DNA of 64,000 nt, from contig CAIURC010000158.1 of assembly GCA_903901425.1 (NCBI GenBank), forward strand, positions 1 to 64,000. Reading direction: 5' to 3'. Below the pieces are notes generated by a model. That model was not told where the DNA came from, did no database searches, and saw nothing but the letters and a program-made list of their open reading frames with translations. The translations under genes and the position numbers were made by a program. The stretch's first letter is position 1. Each line of letters begins with the position of its first letter. Of this stretch, positions 44,076-53,284 are shown piece after piece. The DNA is from an uncultured Spartobacteria bacterium. Its GTDB lineage: Bacteria; Verrucomicrobiota; Verrucomicrobiia; Chthoniobacterales; Chthoniobacteraceae.

Positions 44076-44158
44076 CCGGCTCCGCCGGCTCTCTGACCTT
44101 GGCCAACGGCCATGCGGATTTAAACCCGGGGTTGTTGCAACCCTGGGATCCCGCGCCG
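44076..44158. repeat. structured dispersed repeat, copy B (three hairpins)
   Basis: Partner of 12850-12929. Here the three stems are CCGGC-TCC-GCCGG, TGGCC-AAC-GGCCA and CCGGGGTTG-TTG-CAACCCTGG (one wobble). The first and third stems differ in sequence from copy A but keep pairing. The end overlaps the tandem repeat at 44145. Confidence 0.75.
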
Positions 44159-44346
44159 ATCCCCCAGTGGCCCACATCTCTCCCTGCACTCCCCTGGGAT
44201 CCCGCGCCGATCCCCCAGTGGCCCACATCTCTCCCTGCACTCCCCCGGGATCCCGCGCCGATCCCCGTGGCCCACATCTCTCCCTGCACTCCCCCCGGGA
44301 TCCCGCGCCGATCCCCGGTGGTCCACATCTCTCCCTGCACTCCCCC
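44145..44346. repeat. four tandem 50/51-bp repeats
   Basis: Units start at 44145, 44196, 44247 and 44297 with lengths 51, 51, 50 and 50. Each begins GGGATCCCGCGCCGATCCCC and ends in a conserved CCACATCTCTCCCTGCACTC. Differences are confined to the CCCCAGTGG/CCCCGTGG centre. They have no spacers, so this is not a CRISPR. The 450-bp gap between the WD40 remnant and the giant gene holds no supported gene; bases 44347-44446 show nothing recognisable. Confidence 0.95.
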
Positions 44347-44446
44347 GGGGACCTCGGCTCGGCCCCCATCATGGCCGAGACATACGATCCGCGACGCGCC
44401 GGCCCCCTGATGCCGCGTTCCGCATCCGGCTCGGGAAAACGACGGG

Positions 44447-47400
44447 TCAAGGGTTCGAGATCCGGACCCTGAGGAACCGGGAATTCCTGTAATCGACAGG
44501 CACGGTGTCGCGGAGCTGGAGCAGGCTTGGGGAATCGTGTTCGACAACGGCGCTGACGGGAGTCCATCCCGAGGCGGAGTCGATCTGGTCCTTGGCTTCA
44601 AGCTGGAACGAAAGACCGGTAGCGGCGGGATTTCGAGGGATGGAGATTCTGAGGTAACCGAGGCCGTCCACCTCCACCTCTTCAAAGGATACTGGATCGC
44701 CGTTGCCAGAGTTGGGCTGCGAGTTCAAAGCGAATTCGGCAAGGTTCGAAAAACCGTCCCCGTCAGGATCTGCGAGCGGATCAGAAAACGAGGATGAGGC
44801 GAATCCGGACAGTGGCCAGTAGGCGGCCGCCCATGCGTCGTAGGGGGAGAGTGTTGCGCTAACGTCGAGGGTCCGGAATGTCGGAAGGCCGCCGTCATCG
44901 GCGCTGAGACGGAGTGTGTAGGAGCCTGCGGCGCCCACGCGGAAAGACGAATGGAGTGCGATGGGAGCGGAGAAGAAGGCGGGCCCAGGGCCGGAAACGA
45001 GGTTCCACGCCGTGGTGACGCGGGCAGGAACAGGCAAGCTGTCGTCAACAACGGAGGCCTGAAGCGCAACTGGGGAAAGCGCGTTCGGCACTGGGGTGGT
45101 GAAGGAAATCACCGGCGCAGTGTTCAGCGGAACAATAGAGAGGTTGGAAAACGTGACCGTGTTGAGTCCGACGCCCGTGGCGTTGTCGACATAGAAGCCG
45201 ACCAGAACCGGCGTGGTCATGATCACCGTCTGCGGTTGTCCGACCTGCGCCCAGACTCCGGGCGCACCTGAGACGTCCGGCGCGTGGAAGGCGGTGATGG
45301 AGTTGCCCCGCCGGATAATGCGGATCCAGCGGACAGCTCCGGTAAAGGTTGGAACGCCTCCACCGTTCCCACCCGCAATCGAACGCCAAAGGAAACCCGA
45401 ATAGGAGCCCGTGGGGATCCGGCCCATCTGCGCGTATGCGCCGGTCTCGATGTTTTCCGAGATCCGAATGCCAGAGATGGCGGAACCGGCGCCGGAGGTG
45501 GCGGATGCGTGCTTGGCGGTGACCATGAGATCGCCGGAATACTGCCAGCCATGAAAATACCCGTTGGGTCCTCCGGCCACGGTATAGACACCGTTGCTGA
45601 GCGAGGCGGACCCGGCGAGGGAGGGCGTGGTGTTGGCGTCCTCCGAAACGAAGGTGGGGCTGAGCGTATCCGGCGAGACGGTCACGGAGTCAAAGACGGC
45701 GGTAGCCGTGGAAGAGGCGGAGTTGCTGGTCACGGTCAGGCCGCCGAGAGCCCGGTTGTCCATGGAAGTCGCGGCGGGCGTTCCAAGCGTTTGCCAAGGG
45801 CCGGGCACGCCTGCGACATCCGAGGCGTAGGACGCAGTCACCGTCTGGGTGGTGGCGTTCCGCTCGAGCTTGAGCCAGAGCGGGAGCGTCACTCCCGCCT
45901 GGGTGGTGACGGTATCCACCGTTGAGACCGTGGCACGGGTCCTGAACTGGAGGCCGGTCCCCGGGACAAATCCGAGCACGGCGCGGCGGGCGCCACGGGG
46001 AAGCGCATCCCGGAGTGTGAGCCCGGCGAATGAAGCGGTGGCGGGCGCGCTGGTGAGGCGCGCGGTGACGGAAGAATCGCCGTCCACGGACCGGAGGTCG
46101 ACATGAGCGGCATCGGCACTAGCGGTGTAACCGGCGCCCGTGCCCGCCAGGGTGAAGGTGGAGCCGAGTTGGAGCGTCTGGCCGCGTCTGGAGGAAGAGG
46201 GGCCAAGGTCTTGAGTAATCCAGTCGGCCGGGGCGATGGCGGAACCGTACACGAGGGAGACCTGATCGCTCACGGTGAACTGGCCGTCCGTGGCGCTGAG
46301 CTGGAGGATGTAGGTGCCCGGAGCGGAGAACGTGACGGCCGTTTCGGTCTGGCTGGGGGACTCGATCTGCGCGGTGCCGGGGCCAGCCACCTGACTCCAT
46401 GTGAACGACAGGGGCTGCGGCAGGCCATCGTCGGTGACCGATGCCCGGAGAATTGCACCCTGTCCCTCCGGCAACCGGAACCCTGCCGCGGCGGGGCTGG
46501 TGATGAAAAGCGTGGGCGGCAGGTCGTTGTCGATGATCTGGATGCTGGCAAATGCGTTGGCGCCGATGTCGTAAGCGCCTGTGTTGAGCGAAGCCAGGAC
46601 GAACTCAGTCGGTTCGGTCAGCAGATCGTCCACGGGCTGGATGGAGACGGTCTTGGCCGATTCGCCCGCGGCGAACGTAAGGGAGGTGAACGTGGCGGGG
46701 GAACTGGTGTAGTCTGTGCCGGAGGTTGCCGTCCCTGAAACCGCCAAGGAGACCGTGAGGGAGGCGGTGGTCGGTTCAGAACGGGTGACAAGGAACTGCC
46801 CCGTCTGGCCCGGGGTTTCAGAAGCGGTAGCCACCGGGGCGCTGATCTGGACTGTGCTGCGGTCGTCATCAGCAATCCGGACCGTGGCGCTGTTGGGTGA
46901 GCCAATCTGGTAGGCGGCGTTGGCTGTGACTGTGAGGGTGACGCTCTCTGTGCCTTCGTTGTTTGAGTCTTGGATCGGGCTGAGTGTCACCGTCACGGAA
47001 GGTTCGCCGGCGGGAATCGTGACCAAAGGCGGGATGGACGAGTAGTCCGTGGAGAACGAGGCGGTGCCGGACAGCGCAAAGCTCACGGTAAGCGCCTGAG
47101 CTATCGATCCCGTGCGCACCAGGGTGAAGGCGCCCGGGTCTCCGGACTCGCTGGCATCCGGGTCGGTGGCGGTGACCGTAAGGGTGGGGAACTCGTCGTC
47201 TTTGATCTGCAGCGAATGAGCGTTGAGGGTACCCAGTTGAACGCCGACAGGGTTCGACAGCGAGACCGCGACGGTCTCTGTGGATTCCGTCAGAAGATCC
47301 TGAAGCACCGGGATCTGGATTGCTTTGACGGTTTCACCAGGGGCAAATGAAAGGGATCCAGAAACGGCGGTGTAATCTGCGCCAGCGGTGGCCGAGCCAT

Positions 47401-50400
47401 CGGCCGTGGCAAAATCTACGGTCACCGTGGAGGACATCGGGCGGGACAGGGTGACGAGCACGGAGGCTGCGGGATCGGTTTCCTGGAAGGTGCTGCCAGT
47501 GCTGGCAAAGGAAACAAAGGCGGTGGAAGCCGCCGAATCGTCGTCCACGATGGAGTAGGTGAACTGTTTGAAGGTCCCAAGGGCAGCTCCGGAAGGATTG
47601 CGGAGAACGACAACGAGGTTGTCGAGTGGTTCCAGAGCGTTGTCGTTCAGGATCTGGAGGGTGATGGGTTGGGTTTGTTCGCCCGGTTGAAAGGTGAGCG
47701 TGCCGGCTGGAAGCAGGAAATCGATGCCAGACCCCTGAGCCGTGGAGTTCGAGCTGTCGCGGACAATCAATTCAGGGCCGCTGTTGGCGGTGACGCCGAC
47801 ATACAGCATCCGGCCCCGGTACCCGCTGTCCTCCCGGAGCATGAGGCCCGCCCGTGCGCCCGATGCACCACCGGAGAGCGAGGTGAGTTTCGCCACGATC
47901 TGGAAATCGCCGGAAACCGGGGTGGCCGCGAAATGGCATTCGTCTTGGGAGGAGGAATTGATCCCCGCACCGGAACCGGTGACAGTGTAGGTGGGGGCTG
48001 TGAAGGAGACGCTTCCTTCCTCGTTCACAAAGCCGATGGTCCGTCCCTCGAGAGTCGGATTCGGCTGCGAGCTGATAGAAAGCTGTTCGAATGCTGCGGT
48101 GGCAATCAGGCCGTCGGACTGTGCGGAGACGGCGAGTCCTGCGAGCAGGTTGGGAGGGAATGGAAGAGACTGGGGTTTTCCGATGGGAGCCCAGGAAAGC
48201 CCGTCCCGGGAGACATCCGCGGTAAAGAGATTGCCCGTGCGCTGGATCCGGAGCCAGGCGGGCCGAGAGGTGAGGGTGAGGTTGGTGGGATTGGTTCCGT
48301 TGCTTCCTGCTGTGGACCGCACCAGAAGCTGGGCGGAGTTGGCCGGGGTGACAGCCGCCGTGACGTGCCGGGCATTCGCTGCGGATGTTTCACGAAACAT
48401 CACGGCAGCCCGGGCCCCGGAATTGGAGTTGTCATGGGTCAGTATCCGGGCGGTCAGTGTGCAGTTGGCGGAGTTGGTGATGGGGAACCAGAGGTAGTGG
48501 AAGGCATCTGCGGTTCCGCCAATGTCCGCACCGGCTCCGGTGACCGTGTAAACACCCGAAGTGACCGAGCTGGAACCTGCGGCGCCCGGGGTGCCGATAT
48601 CGGCGGAGGTGGATGCGCCCGTCGTGCCGCCCGCGGAAAGCCCGGTGACCGCGACGTTGTCGAACGTTGCAGTGGAAAGGGAGCCGGCGATTTTGGAGGA
48701 AACCGCGATGCCCGCGAGGTAGCTGGTGCTGGACATTGCGACGGTCTGTGCGGAACCGAGGGTGGTCCATGTCACGCCGTCCGCGGAATGCTGCACAGTA
48801 AAGGAGTTCGAAACGCGGTTGATCCGCAGCCAGTACGGCAACAAAGCGCCGCTGGTGGAGGTGGCGGCGCGTGTGCCCGAATCCACGAAATAATCCACGG
48901 TGACGGGTGTTGTGGCCGGCGTGGCCAGGGAAACCGGGATGCTGAGGGTGCCCACGGACTCCGGTCCTGAATCGCCGGATGCGAGGAATCCGACGGTCTG
49001 AGGGTTGGATTCGTCGTCCGCAATCAGGAGCACCGCGCTGGGGCCGCGGGAGTAAGCGCCTGGAGCGAGGTCGAGGGAAATGGTTTCGGTGCCTTCGACC
49101 AGCGTGTCGTTGGTGATCGCGACTGGGATGTCGGCTCCCGGCGACCCTGCGGGGATTGTGACCGAGCCCGAGAGTGCGGTGTAGTCGGTTCCGGCAGTGG
49201 CGGTGCCACTGGTGGTGTATTGGACCGTGAGCGCGCTGGCGGTGCTGCCTGTGCGGGCGACGTAAAACTTGAGCGGCGAGGCGGCGGTTCCCTCGGTGGC
49301 AGTTGAACTGCCGGAGGTCCCAACCTGTGCATCGACGTACACGGTGGGACGCTCATCGTCCCGCAGCCAGAGGGAGGCAAACGTGGTCGGTGCAAAGCTC
49401 GTGTAGGCGGCGCTGGGGGTGAGGGTCAGGGTGACCGATTCGAGTTCCTCGGCCTCCGTGTCGTTCACGGGAGTGATCACGATATCCTTGGTGACCGTGG
49501 CTCCGTTGTTGAGAGTCACCGTCGTGCCGGTCGCCGAGTTGCCAGTGCCGGTGACCGTGTAATCCGTCGTCAACAGCGCAGTGCCGCCGAGCGTGAATGC
49601 GACCGGCAGCGATCCCGTCCCTGTGCCGCCCCGGACCGTGATGCGAAACGTGCCATTGGTGGCAGGTTCGGAACCACTGGAGAGCGGGATCACGTCCACC
49701 GAGGGGAGTGTTCCCGGGGCATCGGCGATCGTCACCGTGGCGGAAATGGAAGAACCGAGAATGTAGTTGGTGCTTCCGGAGCCGAGGGAGAGCACCACCG
49801 ATTCCGGTCCTTCGCCCAGAGTGTCGTACCGGGGCAGGATGGTGATGCTGGCCTGTGTTGCGCCCGCAGGGATCACGACGGAGCCCGGCAGCGCTTCGTA
49901 ATCGGTGCCATGCAGCGCAGCGATCCCTGGGCTGGGCGGGCCGTAGACTGCATAAAACACCGTGAGCGGAAGGGTGATGTCCCCGGTACGCGTCACCACA
50001 AAGGTGCCGGTGTCCGCCACGGCGCCTGGCGCGGAGAGATCCACTTCCGTGGCCGCAGGGTCAGAGGCCACAACAGAAACCACCTGCAGATCGTCATCGA
50101 TCAGGCTGGCAGAAACCGAGCTCGCAGCGGGTTCAGCCAGAAAGCTGGCTCCGGTCGCGATCGAGATCTTGACTGTTTCCAGTGGCTCCGAAGTTTGGTC
50201 GTTTACGGGCTGGATCGGGAGAATGGCCGAAGATGTGCCCGCGGGAATGAGCAGTGTGCCGGACAAAGGTTCATAGTCCGTTCCGGCGGTGGCGGTGCCA
50301 GAGACCGAATAGGTGACGGAGAGGGCGGCACTGGTCGGGCCAGTTCGTGAAAACGTGATCTGTGCCGGTGAACCGGAGTTTTCGACTGTGGTTTCGCGAG

Positions 50401-53284
50401 CGAGGGCGAGGGAGACTTTCGGGAGCGCGGAATCGTCATCTTGAATAACCACGGTGGCGGCAGACTGCGGGCCGACGAGGTAGCCGTTGCCCGGGCCGAG
50501 TTGGAGGATCACCGTTTCTGGCCCCTCCTGTGCAGTGTCCACGACCGGAGTGACCAGAACCTCCAGAGCGCTGGCGCCGGCTGGGATGGTGAAGGAGTTG
50601 AAGCCCTGGCTGGCGGTGACGGTATCTGGGACGAGCGTGTAATCCGTCGTTTTGGTGGCGGTACCCAGCGGGGCATTGACATTGACCGTGAGCGGCTGGG
50701 AGTTGTCTCCGGAACGGGTGAGGGTGAATTTCCCGGGAGTGACCGGAGCAAGTTCGCCTGCGGACGGGCCTGTGGGGGTGATTTCGACAACGGGAGTCGG
50801 GGCGGCCTCGAAGTTGGCTCCGGCTGCACTGGGACCAACGGGAATGGAGTTGTTGAACAGTTCGCTGAAGGAATAGCCGTAAAGGAGCGGGGTCAGCGTG
50901 TAGGTGTTGGCCGATAGGTTGGGGATGGTGAAATCTCCATCCGCGTCGGTAACCACTCCGTTGGCGCCGTTGGCGGTGACCACCACATCCTGGAGGCCCC
51001 GGCCCTGAAGCGTGACCCGGCCCGAGATGGTAAACCGGCCGTTTCCGTTGCCCACGGTGATCAGGCGGGTCCGCGTGGTGGTGCCCCCGCGCATGTCGCT
51101 CGCGGTGCAGCTCACCGCGTAAATTCCCGCGGCGGAAAACGTGCGGGTGATCACCGGGGAATTGCCGGAAACCAGTTTGACCGCGGAATCTCCAAAGTGC
51201 TGCCAGTAGTACGCGAGGGGATCCCCGTCCGGATCGGAGGCGGCGGCGGTGAGAGTGACCGTGGTGCCTACGGGAACCACCTCGGACGAGGCAGCCAAGG
51301 AAAGGGAGGGCGGCTGGTTCCCGGGAAACTGACCGAACTGCACCACCAGATCGGCGTACCGCGGGTTTTCGTTGACGGCAACGGTCGTGATGTGGATTCC
51401 GGCTTCCCGGTCGGAGAAGGTGTTGCCGAGGGCGATGGGTGCGTCCTCCTTGAGGAAGGGGGAGCCCGGGGTGCAGTCAATCCGCTGGAGGTTTCCGCCG
51501 GAACCGTTGGGGAACCGCCATCCGAGCAGGACCCCGTTTTTGACCCAGGGATTCGTGTCGAAAAGGGAGCGGACTTCCCCCCAGTAGGTGCGCTGGGCGT
51601 CCTTTACGATGGTGAACGCGTAGCGCTGTCCGGGCACCAGGGTGGCCTGGTCAAACGCGTGGAGCCGGTACTGGCCGGACTGGGAGATGGATTGGACAAA
51701 AGCGGGGGTCAGCCATTTGATCTGAGACTTGGCTTGGGAGTTGTAGTGGCCGGCCGGGAACGAGCCGGAGTTTCCCATGTTGTCGTAGGGATCTCCGTAC
51801 TCCGAATTGGTGCCGGCTCCGATTGCGCTCGTTCCGGCTGTGTCCCAGAAGTTGGAATGGCCGAGTCCGAAGCAATGTCCGATTTCATGGGCCCACACGC
51901 CGGAGTTGTCGCTGCGCATCCAGACGCTGCTGCCGCCGCCCAGCCCGCCATAGGAGCCCGGGCCGCCGTTGTGCCGGACCACAATGCAGTCGTAGTCGTT
52001 CGAGTCGAACCCGAGCTTCCGGGCCTCCTCACGGGCATGGCTGTGCTCAAGACCTTCGCCATCGATGTCACCCCCGTTCGAGGTGTCCCGATTGATGTAC
52101 CAGGCCTCGTTGTGCGGAAGTTTGATGGGGGGCGATACCGCACCCACCAGTGTGAGCCGGCCAAACGAGGATTTCGCGTAAAAATCCGCCACATCCCGCA
52201 GGACATTGTACAGGGCGGCCTCCGTGGACGGGACGCCGTTCTGGTCCGCGTAAGTTGTTGGAATGGCCAGGACCCGGATGGTTCCCAAGGCCGGCGTCGG
52301 AGCGGAGGGAAGCAGTCCGGTGAAGCCCGTAGCGCCCCCGGTCACCCCCTCGCCCATCAGCAGGGTCTGGTTGTACGGGTCAATGTGCATCTGGCCGCAG
52401 AGCTGGACCAGTTCCGTGGCCGTCTCCACCATCGGCGTCTGCTCGGTCACCGCCGCGCCCTGTGAAAGTTCCGCCGCCGGCGCTATTTCGCCAGAGATCG
52501 GGCAAACAGATACCACGGGTTTGTCCGCGGCTGGCACTTCCCCCACCTCCAGCGTCCGGGATGGCCGCTCGTTCACCGCCATGTCGCTTCCGACCGCCAC
52601 GCCGTTCAAAGAGGCGCCCGGCACCCACCGCAGTTCCTGGGCACGCCGGCCGTACACACGCGCCGTGTAGGTCTTGCCGTCCTGAAACTGGACCTTCCGA
52701 ATGGGGAGCCCGTCCGATTTCTGGCCCTGCTCCGGAACACCCTGGTAAACGCGAATCGTTCCCACATTGTTCACGCGCTTCTCCAAGACCTCCGTGACCG
52801 ACTCCGGCAACGCTTGGCGGACCACCATCGGCACCGCTTCCTCAAGAGCCCGTTTCGGGTCACTGATGATCACCGAACGGAACGCCGGCAGACGGGCCTG
52901 AGCGAGGGCCACGCCCCGGGCCTCAAGCGGCTTCCGCTTTTCCGGAGGCGCCGCAAGGTATTCCGCCGCCCACTGGTAAAAGGCGGCACTCGGCGCGTCC
53001 TGAACTACCCCGGCCTGCCGGATGGCCGCGGCCTGACCGGCCGAAAACGGGCCGCGCACCGCCACGGATTTGGTGGAAAGATTGGGAGTGCGTGATGGCG
53101 CCGGAGGCGCCTCGACCTGAAGCGGCAGGGCTTGGGCCTTCGGTTGCATGGCCGCAGGCGGGCGCCCATCCTCCTGCGTCCTGTCTGCCGGGGACCGGTC
53201 ATCGAACACAAACGTGGCGAGCCAGCCGACGCCGAGGGCGGCGGAGACGACGAGCAACGGGCGGACAAACCGGGAGGCGGTCAT
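44447..53284 (-). CDS. giant secreted metalloprotease with Calx-beta array
   Basis: 2945 residues. A signal/anchor (RFVRPLLVVSAALGVGWLATF) leads to a metalloprotease domain with HEIGHCFGLGH (His about 466, 470 and 476), a HExxHxxGxxH zinc site of M6/metzincin type. A PKD domain (about 658-738) and a carboxypeptidase-regulatory-like module (about 745-815) follow. About nine Calx-beta domains come next, each ending with a DDD/DDE/DND Ca-binding triplet. The sixth Calx-beta is split by 1122 bp encoding DUF1349-like sandwich modules. A second PKD-like domain, two more sandwich modules and a C-terminal DPDGDGFSNLAEF calcium-type module complete it. Likely a calcium-stabilised surface or secreted protease or adhesin. 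Confidence 0.88.
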   Translation of the reverse strand: MTASRFVRPLLVVSAALGVGWLATFVFDDRSPADRTQEDGRPPAAMQPKAQALPLQVEAPPAPSRTPNLSTKSVAVRGPFSAGQAAAIRQAGVVQDAPSAAFYQWAAEYLAAPPEKRKPLEARGVALAQARLPAFRSVIISDPKRALEEAVPMVVRQALPESVTEVLEKRVNNVGTIRVYQGVPEQGQKSDGLPIRKVQFQDGKTYTARVYGRRAQELRWVPGASLNGVAVGSDMAVNERPSRTLEVGEVPAADKPVVSVCPISGEIAPAAELSQGAAVTEQTPMVETATELVQLCGQMHIDPYNQTLLMGEGVTGGATGFTGLLPSAPTPALGTIRVLAIPTTYADQNGVPSTEAALYNVLRDVADFYAKSSFGRLTLVGAVSPPIKLPHNEAWYINRDTSNGGDIDGEGLEHSHAREEARKLGFDSNDYDCIVVRHNGGPGSYGGLGGGSSVWMRSDNSGVWAHEIGHCFGLGHSNFWDTAGTSAIGAGTNSEYGDPYDNMGNSGSFPAGHYNSQAKSQIKWLTPAFVQSISQSGQYRLHAFDQATLVPGQRYAFTIVKDAQRTYWGEVRSLFDTNPWVKNGVLLGWRFPNGSGGNLQRIDCTPGSPFLKEDAPIALGNTFSDREAGIHITTVAVNENPRYADLVVQFGQFPGNQPPSLSLAASSEVVPVGTTVTLTAAASDPDGDPLAYYWQHFGDSAVKLVSGNSPVITRTFSAAGIYAVSCTASDMRGGTTTRTRLITVGNGNGRFTISGRVTLQGRGLQDVVVTANGANGVVTDADGDFTIPNLSANTYTLTPLLYGYSFSELFNNSIPVGPSAAGANFEAAPTPVVEITPTGPSAGELAPVTPGKFTLTRSGDNSQPLTVNVNAPLGTATKTTDYTLVPDTVTASQGFNSFTIPAGASALEVLVTPVVDTAQEGPETVILQLGPGNGYLVGPQSAATVVIQDDDSALPKVSLALARETTVENSGSPAQITFSRTGPTSAALSVTYSVSGTATAGTDYEPLSGTLLIPAGTSSAILPIQPVNDQTSEPLETVKISIATGASFLAEPAASSVSASLIDDDLQVVSVVASDPAATEVDLSAPGAVADTGTFVVTRTGDITLPLTVFYAVYGPPSPGIAALHGTDYEALPGSVVIPAGATQASITILPRYDTLGEGPESVVLSLGSGSTNYILGSSISATVTIADAPGTLPSVDVIPLSSGSEPATNGTFRITVRGGTGTGSLPVAFTLGGTALLTTDYTVTGTGNSATGTTVTLNNGATVTKDIVITPVNDTEAEELESVTLTLTPSAAYTSFAPTTFASLWLRDDERPTVYVDAQVGTSGSSTATEGTAASPLKFYVARTGSTASALTVQYTTSGTATAGTDYTALSGSVTIPAGSPGADIPVAITNDTLVEGTETISLDLAPGAYSRGPSAVLLIADDESNPQTVGFLASGDSGPESVGTLSIPVSLATPATTPVTVDYFVDSGTRAATSTSGALLPYWLRINRVSNSFTVQHSADGVTWTTLGSAQTVAMSSTSYLAGIAVSSKIAGSLSTATFDNVAVTGLSAGGTTGASTSADIGTPGAAGSSSVTSGVYTVTGAGADIGGTADAFHYLWFPITNSANCTLTARILTHDNSNSGARAAVMFRETSAANARHVTAAVTPANSAQLLVRSTAGSNGTNPTNLTLTSRPAWLRIQRTGNLFTADVSRDGLSWAPIGKPQSLPFPPNLLAGLAVSAQSDGLIATAAFEQLSISSQPNPTLEGRTIGFVNEEGSVSFTAPTYTVTGSGAGINSSSQDECHFAATPVSGDFQIVAKLTSLSGGASGARAGLMLREDSGYRGRMLYVGVTANSGPELIVRDSSNSTAQGSGIDFLLPAGTLTFQPGEQTQPITLQILNDNALEPLDNLVVVLRNPSGAALGTFKQFTYSIVDDDSAASTAFVSFASTGSTFQETDPAASVLVTLSRPMSSTVTVDFATADGSATAGADYTAVSGSLSFAPGETVKAIQIPVLQDLLTESTETVAVSLSNPVGVQLGTLNAHSLQIKDDEFPTLTVTATDPDASESGDPGAFTLVRTGSIAQALTVSFALSGTASFSTDYSSIPPLVTIPAGEPSVTVTLSPIQDSNNEGTESVTLTVTANAAYQIGSPNSATVRIADDDRSTVQISAPVATASETPGQTGQFLVTRSEPTTASLTVSLAVSGTATSGTDYTSSPATFTSLTFAAGESAKTVSIQPVDDLLTEPTEFVLASLNTGAYDIGANAFASIQIIDNDLPPTLFITSPAAAGFRLPEGQGAILRASVTDDGLPQPLSFTWSQVAGPGTAQIESPSQTETAVTFSAPGTYILQLSATDGQFTVSDQVSLVYGSAIAPADWITQDLGPSSSRRGQTLQLGSTFTLAGTGAGYTASADAAHVDLRSVDGDSSVTARLTSAPATASFAGLTLRDALPRGARRAVLGFVPGTGLQFRTRATVSTVDTVTTQAGVTLPLWLKLERNATTQTVTASYASDVAGVPGPWQTLGTPAATSMDNRALGGLTVTSNSASSTATAVFDSVTVSPDTLSPTFVSEDANTTPSLAGSASLSNGVYTVAGGPNGYFHGWQYSGDLMVTAKHASATSGAGSAISGIRISENIETGAYAQMGRIPTGSYSGFLWRSIAGGNGGGVPTFTGAVRWIRIIRRGNSITAFHAPDVSGAPGVWAQVGQPQTVIMTTPVLVGFYVDNATGVGLNTVTFSNLSIVPLNTAPVISFTTPVPNALSPVALQASVVDDSLPVPARVTTAWNLVSGPGPAFFSAPIALHSSFRVGAAGSYTLRLSADDGGLPTFRTLDVSATLSPYDAWAAAYWPLSGFASSSFSDPLADPDGDGFSNLAEFALNSQPNSGNGDPVSFEEVEVDGLGYLRISIPRNPAATGLSFQLEAKDQIDSASGWTPVSAVVEHDSPSLLQLRDTVPVDYRNSRFLRVRISNP

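Follow-up and report, generated by a model that had tools for sequence, protein, structure and literature searches.

In a giant metalloprotease encoded within the window (the whole stretch of 64,000 nucleotides that was analysed), the sixth Calx-beta domain is interrupted by circularly permuted DUF1349-type modules, and this arrangement is a genuine, conserved domain insertion combined with circular permutation, of single origin. The event probably corresponded to the ancient insertion of a module segment two periods long and cut out of phase, around which Calx-beta 6 closes and which forms two permuted units in series. The gene and its features are listed below, with the four half-modules of the insert designated C1, N2, C2 and N3 in their order of reading.

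44447..53284, minus strand: giant metalloprotease gene, 2945 aa, a single open frame with Pfam matches to Calx-beta, PKD, DUF1349 and Peptidase_M66
51365..52399, minus strand: metalloprotease region with the zinc motif HEIGHCFGLGH (sequence, homologues, Pfam M66)
49010..50794, minus strand: Calx-beta 1-5, intact (in-house Calx-beta HMM)
48848..49006, minus strand: N-terminal part of Calx-beta 6, aa 1427-1479 (joined-half score, alignment, match of the L057 model)
47726..48847, minus strand: insert of 374 codons with two circularly permuted DUF1349-type units (HMM parse; kept in 13 relatives)
48299..48847, minus strand: permuted unit 1, C1 + N2, about aa 1480-1662 (AlphaFold2 model m8ff1e9ddfb6b, residues 61-241 on 1ajo)
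48068..48610, minus strand: native-phase reading N2 + C2, by sequence only (in-house module HMM, positions 2-179, 245.8 bits)
47750..48265, minus strand: permuted unit 2, C2 + N3, about aa 1674-1845 (low-pLDDT boundaries in m8ff1e9ddfb6b; the sole unit left in L057)
47537..47725, minus strand: C-terminal part of Calx-beta 6, aa 1854-1916 (domain parse with in-house HMM, joined-half score)
46523..47518, minus strand: Calx-beta 7-9, intact (in-house Calx-beta HMM)
45671..46222, minus strand: DUF1349-type module D1, native phase, near the C-terminus (in-house module HMM)
45128..45652, minus strand: DUF1349-type module D2, native phase, near the C-terminus (in-house module HMM)

The order of domains was established using HMMs made in-house on intact domains, together with Pfam matches, and runs from the N- to the C-terminus as protease, PKD, Calx-beta 1-5, the broken Calx-beta 6, Calx-beta 7-9, a PKD-like domain and two DUF1349-type modules in native order; because five intact Calx-beta domains come before it, the interrupted domain is the sixth. 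Across the 2945-residue protein, the Pfam Calx-beta family scored 269.9 bits and the NCBIfam M6 domain scored 36.7, below its cutoff of 110.8. The metalloprotease region, which also served as the query for the family search, carries a motif of the HExxHxxGxxH type and matched Pfam M66 at 22.7 bits (cutoff 20.6). A short way past the stop of the protease gene, on its downstream side, is a 51-nt unit in tandem (4.1 copies, 95% matches, window 44141-44349).

The proposal of a first-pass annotation of this DNA, that Calx-beta 6 is split in frame by 374 codons, was borne out by the score of the joined halves, by relatives, by the protease tree and by structure models. The insert spans residues 1480-1853 (1122 bp) and keeps the frame. 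Against the in-house HMM built from intact Calx-beta domains, the interrupted domain scored 57.9 bits over positions 2-109 of 109 once its parts were joined, compared with 12.9 bits for the left part and 37.1 for the right; when both breakpoints were moved in 4-residue steps between -40 and +40, the maximum of 61.9 was reached 4-8 residues from the points first assigned. In one relative (L057), Pfam PF03160 found the right part alone (36.2, cutoff 27). Structures were predicted using AlphaFold2, with seven natural sequences as input. Residues 9-306 of the L057 model aligned as one Calx-beta to NCX1 CBD1 (3gin_A; Z 15.4, rmsd 2.0, 112 of 116 residues), and the corresponding match of the window's model was weaker (Z 8.5, 95 residues). 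The acidic DDD end of the domain, which bears on a possible calcium binding, is present in the sequence. By its full-length match and its predicted fold, the joined domain counts as a member of the Calx-beta family (PF03160; NCX1 CBD1, 3gin), being alike in fold, conserved motifs and strand order, and unlike it in being interrupted in the loop around GTA..G.D, where the unsplit sister proteins are intact.

Along the insert, the in-house module HMM matched first at positions 99-178, then over a whole module (2-179), and then at positions 3-104. The claim that the insert represents a circular permutation of two modules, in the order C-half, whole module and N-half, accordingly held up, with relatives and structure models adding to the HMM evidence. 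Since N3 joined to C1 scored 158.5 bits over positions 3-178, far above the 79.5 and 78.3 bits of the separate pieces, these two outer halves make one complete module. The insert also matched Pfam DUF1349 (PF07081, a concanavalin-like jelly roll) above its cutoff (37.0 bits, cutoff 32.4) by way of its C-halves; the best stretches covered only profile positions 105-177, the very best being 117-177 of 179, and the N-half was recognised by the in-house HMM built on native-order modules. The DUF1349-type modules of relatives such as L030 and L138 are single-copy and in native order, whereas in the insert a C-half precedes an N-half. A sequence search yielded no solved structure of a DUF1349-type module.

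At the level of DNA, the insert was ordinary in GC, GC3 and the sharing of short words, and no trace of the event was found; the longest word shared between its junctions was 9 nt, which is chance level (15 of 300 shuffles gave at least 9). The pattern of Ser or Gly followed by LLP, originally described at both breakpoints, is specific to the window's genome, and relatives differ from it (for example, SPVPYW and GSGVDFTLNAG). In protein alignments the relatives displayed an apparent extra 3-4 residues at the junctions (SGT(R) on the left, STA on the right), which, going by these alignments, could be either a short target duplication or a piece of the module loop. At the left junction of the one-unit relative L134 (VEYLVTSPGTATNAGLQYTTTLPRW), the Calx-beta part continues for longer before the insert begins (GTATNAGLQYTT) than it does in the other relatives, as though the insert were flanked by a longer stretch on each side.

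The same split was found in 13 relatives from other genomes, of which 11 (like the window) carry two units and two (L057 and L134) carry one. These are L026 (from genome G002), L027/L052 (G008), L028/L053 (G035), L029/L055 (G013), L054, L056, L057, L132 (G398), L133 (G442), L134 (G369), L135 (G407), L149 (G753) and L150 (G785). The named sources are metagenome assemblies of Verrucomicrobiota, including Chthoniobacteraceae, Phragmitibacter and Verrucomicrobiaceae, and among the relatives measured the split region is 41-59% identical to that of the window. This recurrence bears directly on whether the arrangement might be an assembly error or a chimeric contig: in favour of an error, the assembly that contains the window is a draft in 224 contigs, but both junctions recur in 13 other assemblies and a second close copy of the insert was not found in the genome itself. 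An artefact of assembly, ruled out by those relatives, is thus vanishingly improbable.

Fifteen more distant protease homologues have Calx-beta domains without such a split, one of which (L144) sits on a single contig of 6.4 Mb; two genomes (G013 and G442) carry split and unsplit proteins together. In a tree of 29 protease domains, the distinction between split and unsplit proteins corresponded to one change (support 99/100, and 200 of 200 bootstrap trees). With the tree rooted at its midpoint, unsplit proteins fall on both sides of the root, and therefore the split would be the derived state. The prospect that all homologues might be split alike, which would have spoken against an integration, thus holds within the split clade and not outside it, where unsplit homologues occur. 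Among these, the search that had been suggested for proteins with an unsplit sixth domain found the sisters L136-L138: the joined Calx-beta 6 was nearest to their sixth Calx-beta domains (mean 68.0, 56.5 and 68.5 bits, with next-best domains at 40.8, 36.6 and 38.0), which indicates that an empty site exists, as exemplified by VEYAITTGTATGVGIDFTLSNG in L138. Because the insertion is common to all 14 proteins of the subfamily and absent from the 15 outgroup homologues, the event was ancient and not a recent integration.

Between the fixed junction motifs lie 375-390 aa in the 11 two-unit proteins tabulated, one of which is that of the window, as against 186 aa in L057 and 189 aa in L134, so that insert length comes in whole units; L150, which falls outside that table, was assigned two units by domain parse. 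L057 is nested among the two-unit proteins (99/97). It carries a C2-type C-half (62-63% to L027 and L054, versus 35-41% to C1) and an N3-type N-half (71-73%, versus 37-40% to N2), and from this placement and these types it follows that L057 lost exactly the unit C1-N2.

The manner in which the halves pair was addressed using the structure models, which reached pLDDT 77.8 and pTM 0.65 for the region of L057, and a moderate pLDDT 72.8 and pTM 0.49 for that of the window, with pLDDT under 50 across much of Calx-beta 6 in the latter. The insert of L057 (model residues 52-234) matched best to 1ajo (Z 11.6, 165 residues), followed by permuted, concanavalin A-like lectins of Diocleinae (Z about 8.5), and residues 61-241 of the window's model, corresponding to C1 + N2, also fitted 1ajo (Z 10.6). 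Of all solved jelly rolls, this structure, an engineered circularly permuted 1,3-1,4-beta-glucanase (CPA16M-127), gave the insert its highest score in each of the two models; it differs in being an engineered enzyme of 8-9% identity, and the insert matched no catalytic family. In the models, the fold accordingly appears to be kept in the swapped order of halves. Low-confidence stretches in the window's model lie at residues 53-63, 244-255 and 428-436, that is, at the two junctions and where N2 meets C2. These boundaries, the fit of C1 + N2 on 1ajo and the one-unit relative L057 together favour a predicted pairing of C1 with N2 and of C2 with N3, giving two permuted domains in series, in which the second pairing was reached by elimination, from the boundaries and L057 rather than from a separate structural match. 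The permutation originally described stands, and the model and L057 favour serial units over the intact module placed between two halves.

A nested arrangement, in which N2-C2 folds natively and the outer C1 and N3 meet around it as one split, circularly permuted module, has in its favour that N2-C2 is a perfect native module by sequence and that N3 and C1 combine at full length with the score given above. Tandem repeats are moreover able to fold either way, and domain-swapped circular permutants of tandem domains, with alternative pairings of repeats, are known (PMC4862688), for which reason this arrangement was retained as a rival. It is nonetheless unlikely: the disordered boundaries coincide with the junctions and with the step from N2 to C2, C1 + N2 fits one jelly roll, and L057 retains C2 + N3 as one well-predicted domain, the halves of which would belong to two different modules under nesting.

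The history behind the preferred serial arrangement is as follows. The evidence shows that the GTA..G.D loop of Calx-beta 6 gained two DUF1349-type periods in the ancestor shared by one subfamily of giant Verrucomicrobiota metalloproteases, in a segment cut in the loop that joins the halves of a module, so as to read C-half, N-half, C-half, N-half. Calx-beta 6 is predicted to close round this insert and each C-half to pair with the next N-half, and the resulting two jelly rolls in series would form a side arm off the Calx-beta rod, anchored by its two ends in a single loop. The host domain would withstand the loss of entire units, and such a loss happened at least once. The segment itself presumably derives from modules of this type arrayed in tandem, via out-of-phase recombination or copying.

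The first-pass annotation had instead invoked the integration of an excised circle of two tandem modules, and the insert does have the whole module number and the same cut at both ends that an opened circle would yield. However, a linear two-period piece taken in shifted phase from a longer array would yield an identical sequence, so that a circle is unnecessary, and arrays of several such modules are present in other proteins; no target repeat or microhomology was seen at the junctions, and the event is far too old to have retained any. Integration of a circle is thus distinctly improbable. As to the donor, the modules of the insert matched those of other proteins at 40-57% (best C-half) and 35-46% (best N-half), and matched D1 and D2 of their own protein at 21-40% (C) and 18-30% (N), a comparison biased by the fact that donor loci, many of them from other phyla, were fetched by similarity to the insert. 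Because it is closer to modules elsewhere, the insert is probably no recent copy of D1 or D2, and these were set aside as its recent source. None of the fetched loci turned out to be a donor array specifically akin to the insert, and a search of phage gave one weak match. Trees of half-modules contained too few columns to separate the joint arrival of both units from duplication after arrival.

Circular permutations and domain insertions are mostly met as finished products. The family described here combines an empty site, a two-unit state and a one-unit state on a supported tree, and the grafting of an out-of-phase array segment thereby becomes directly testable as a path to natural circular permutation. 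Natural examples include concanavalin A and favin, in which concanavalin A is a circular permutant relative to other legume lectins, and saposin and swaposin (reviewed in PMC3320104). The insert resembles these in that halves are swapped with the fold predicted to be kept, and in that tandem modules are its starting point, as they are when permutation arises by duplication; it differs in that its permuted unit is no product of new start and stop codons but sits within a loop of a host domain, where it comes singly or twice. Compared with surveyed domain-insertion architectures (PMC13114784), it is alike in that one domain interrupts another with both ends of the insert in one host loop, and differs in that the insert is permuted and bigger than its host (374 aa versus about 110), inserts having been smaller than their hosts in 77% of events in that survey. 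The main text of the survey makes no mention of Calx-beta, and in the titles and abstracts of literature matches that pair Calx-beta with DUF1349, with Verrucomicrobia or with domain insertion, the arrangement is undescribed. As a guess from the families involved, the Calx-beta stalk of a surface or secreted protease might bear a side arm of jelly-roll modules for binding, and this arm may add glycan- or surface-binding to the protease stalk. The pairing of a Calx-beta loop with a jelly-roll insert could likewise find use in building side arms on rod-like proteins.

More generally, the arrangement shows that proteins can take up pieces of repeat arrays cut out of phase and that such grafts still look foldable. 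It is tentatively suggested, as a possibility somewhat short of even likelihood, that array pieces cut at any matching loop repeatedly enter tolerant loops of beta-sandwiches, and such phase-free grafting would constitute a route to permutation distinct from duplication and truncation or from fission and fusion. Two sets of additional splits make these loops look tolerant of insertion, and so support general grafting without proving it. First, Calx-beta 4, which is intact in the window, L026 and L057, is split near the same point (after GTDY) in L027 by about 275 aa of WAVGDGGTILKWNG-type tandem repeats (aa 1234-1510; L052:5669-6499), and likewise in L054 (aa 1394-1663) and L150 (aa 1252-1521), the inserts comprising about 270-280 aa in approximately seven propeller-like repeats; these repeats matched no Pfam family at its cutoff and probably form a beta-propeller. 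Second, in an open reading frame on another contig of the window's genome (L039 on C181, aa 1041-1410), the halves of a DUF1349-type module lie about 200-215 aa apart, with a spacer that resembles two Ig-like domains, and the loop so split is equivalent to the cut point of the permuted modules.
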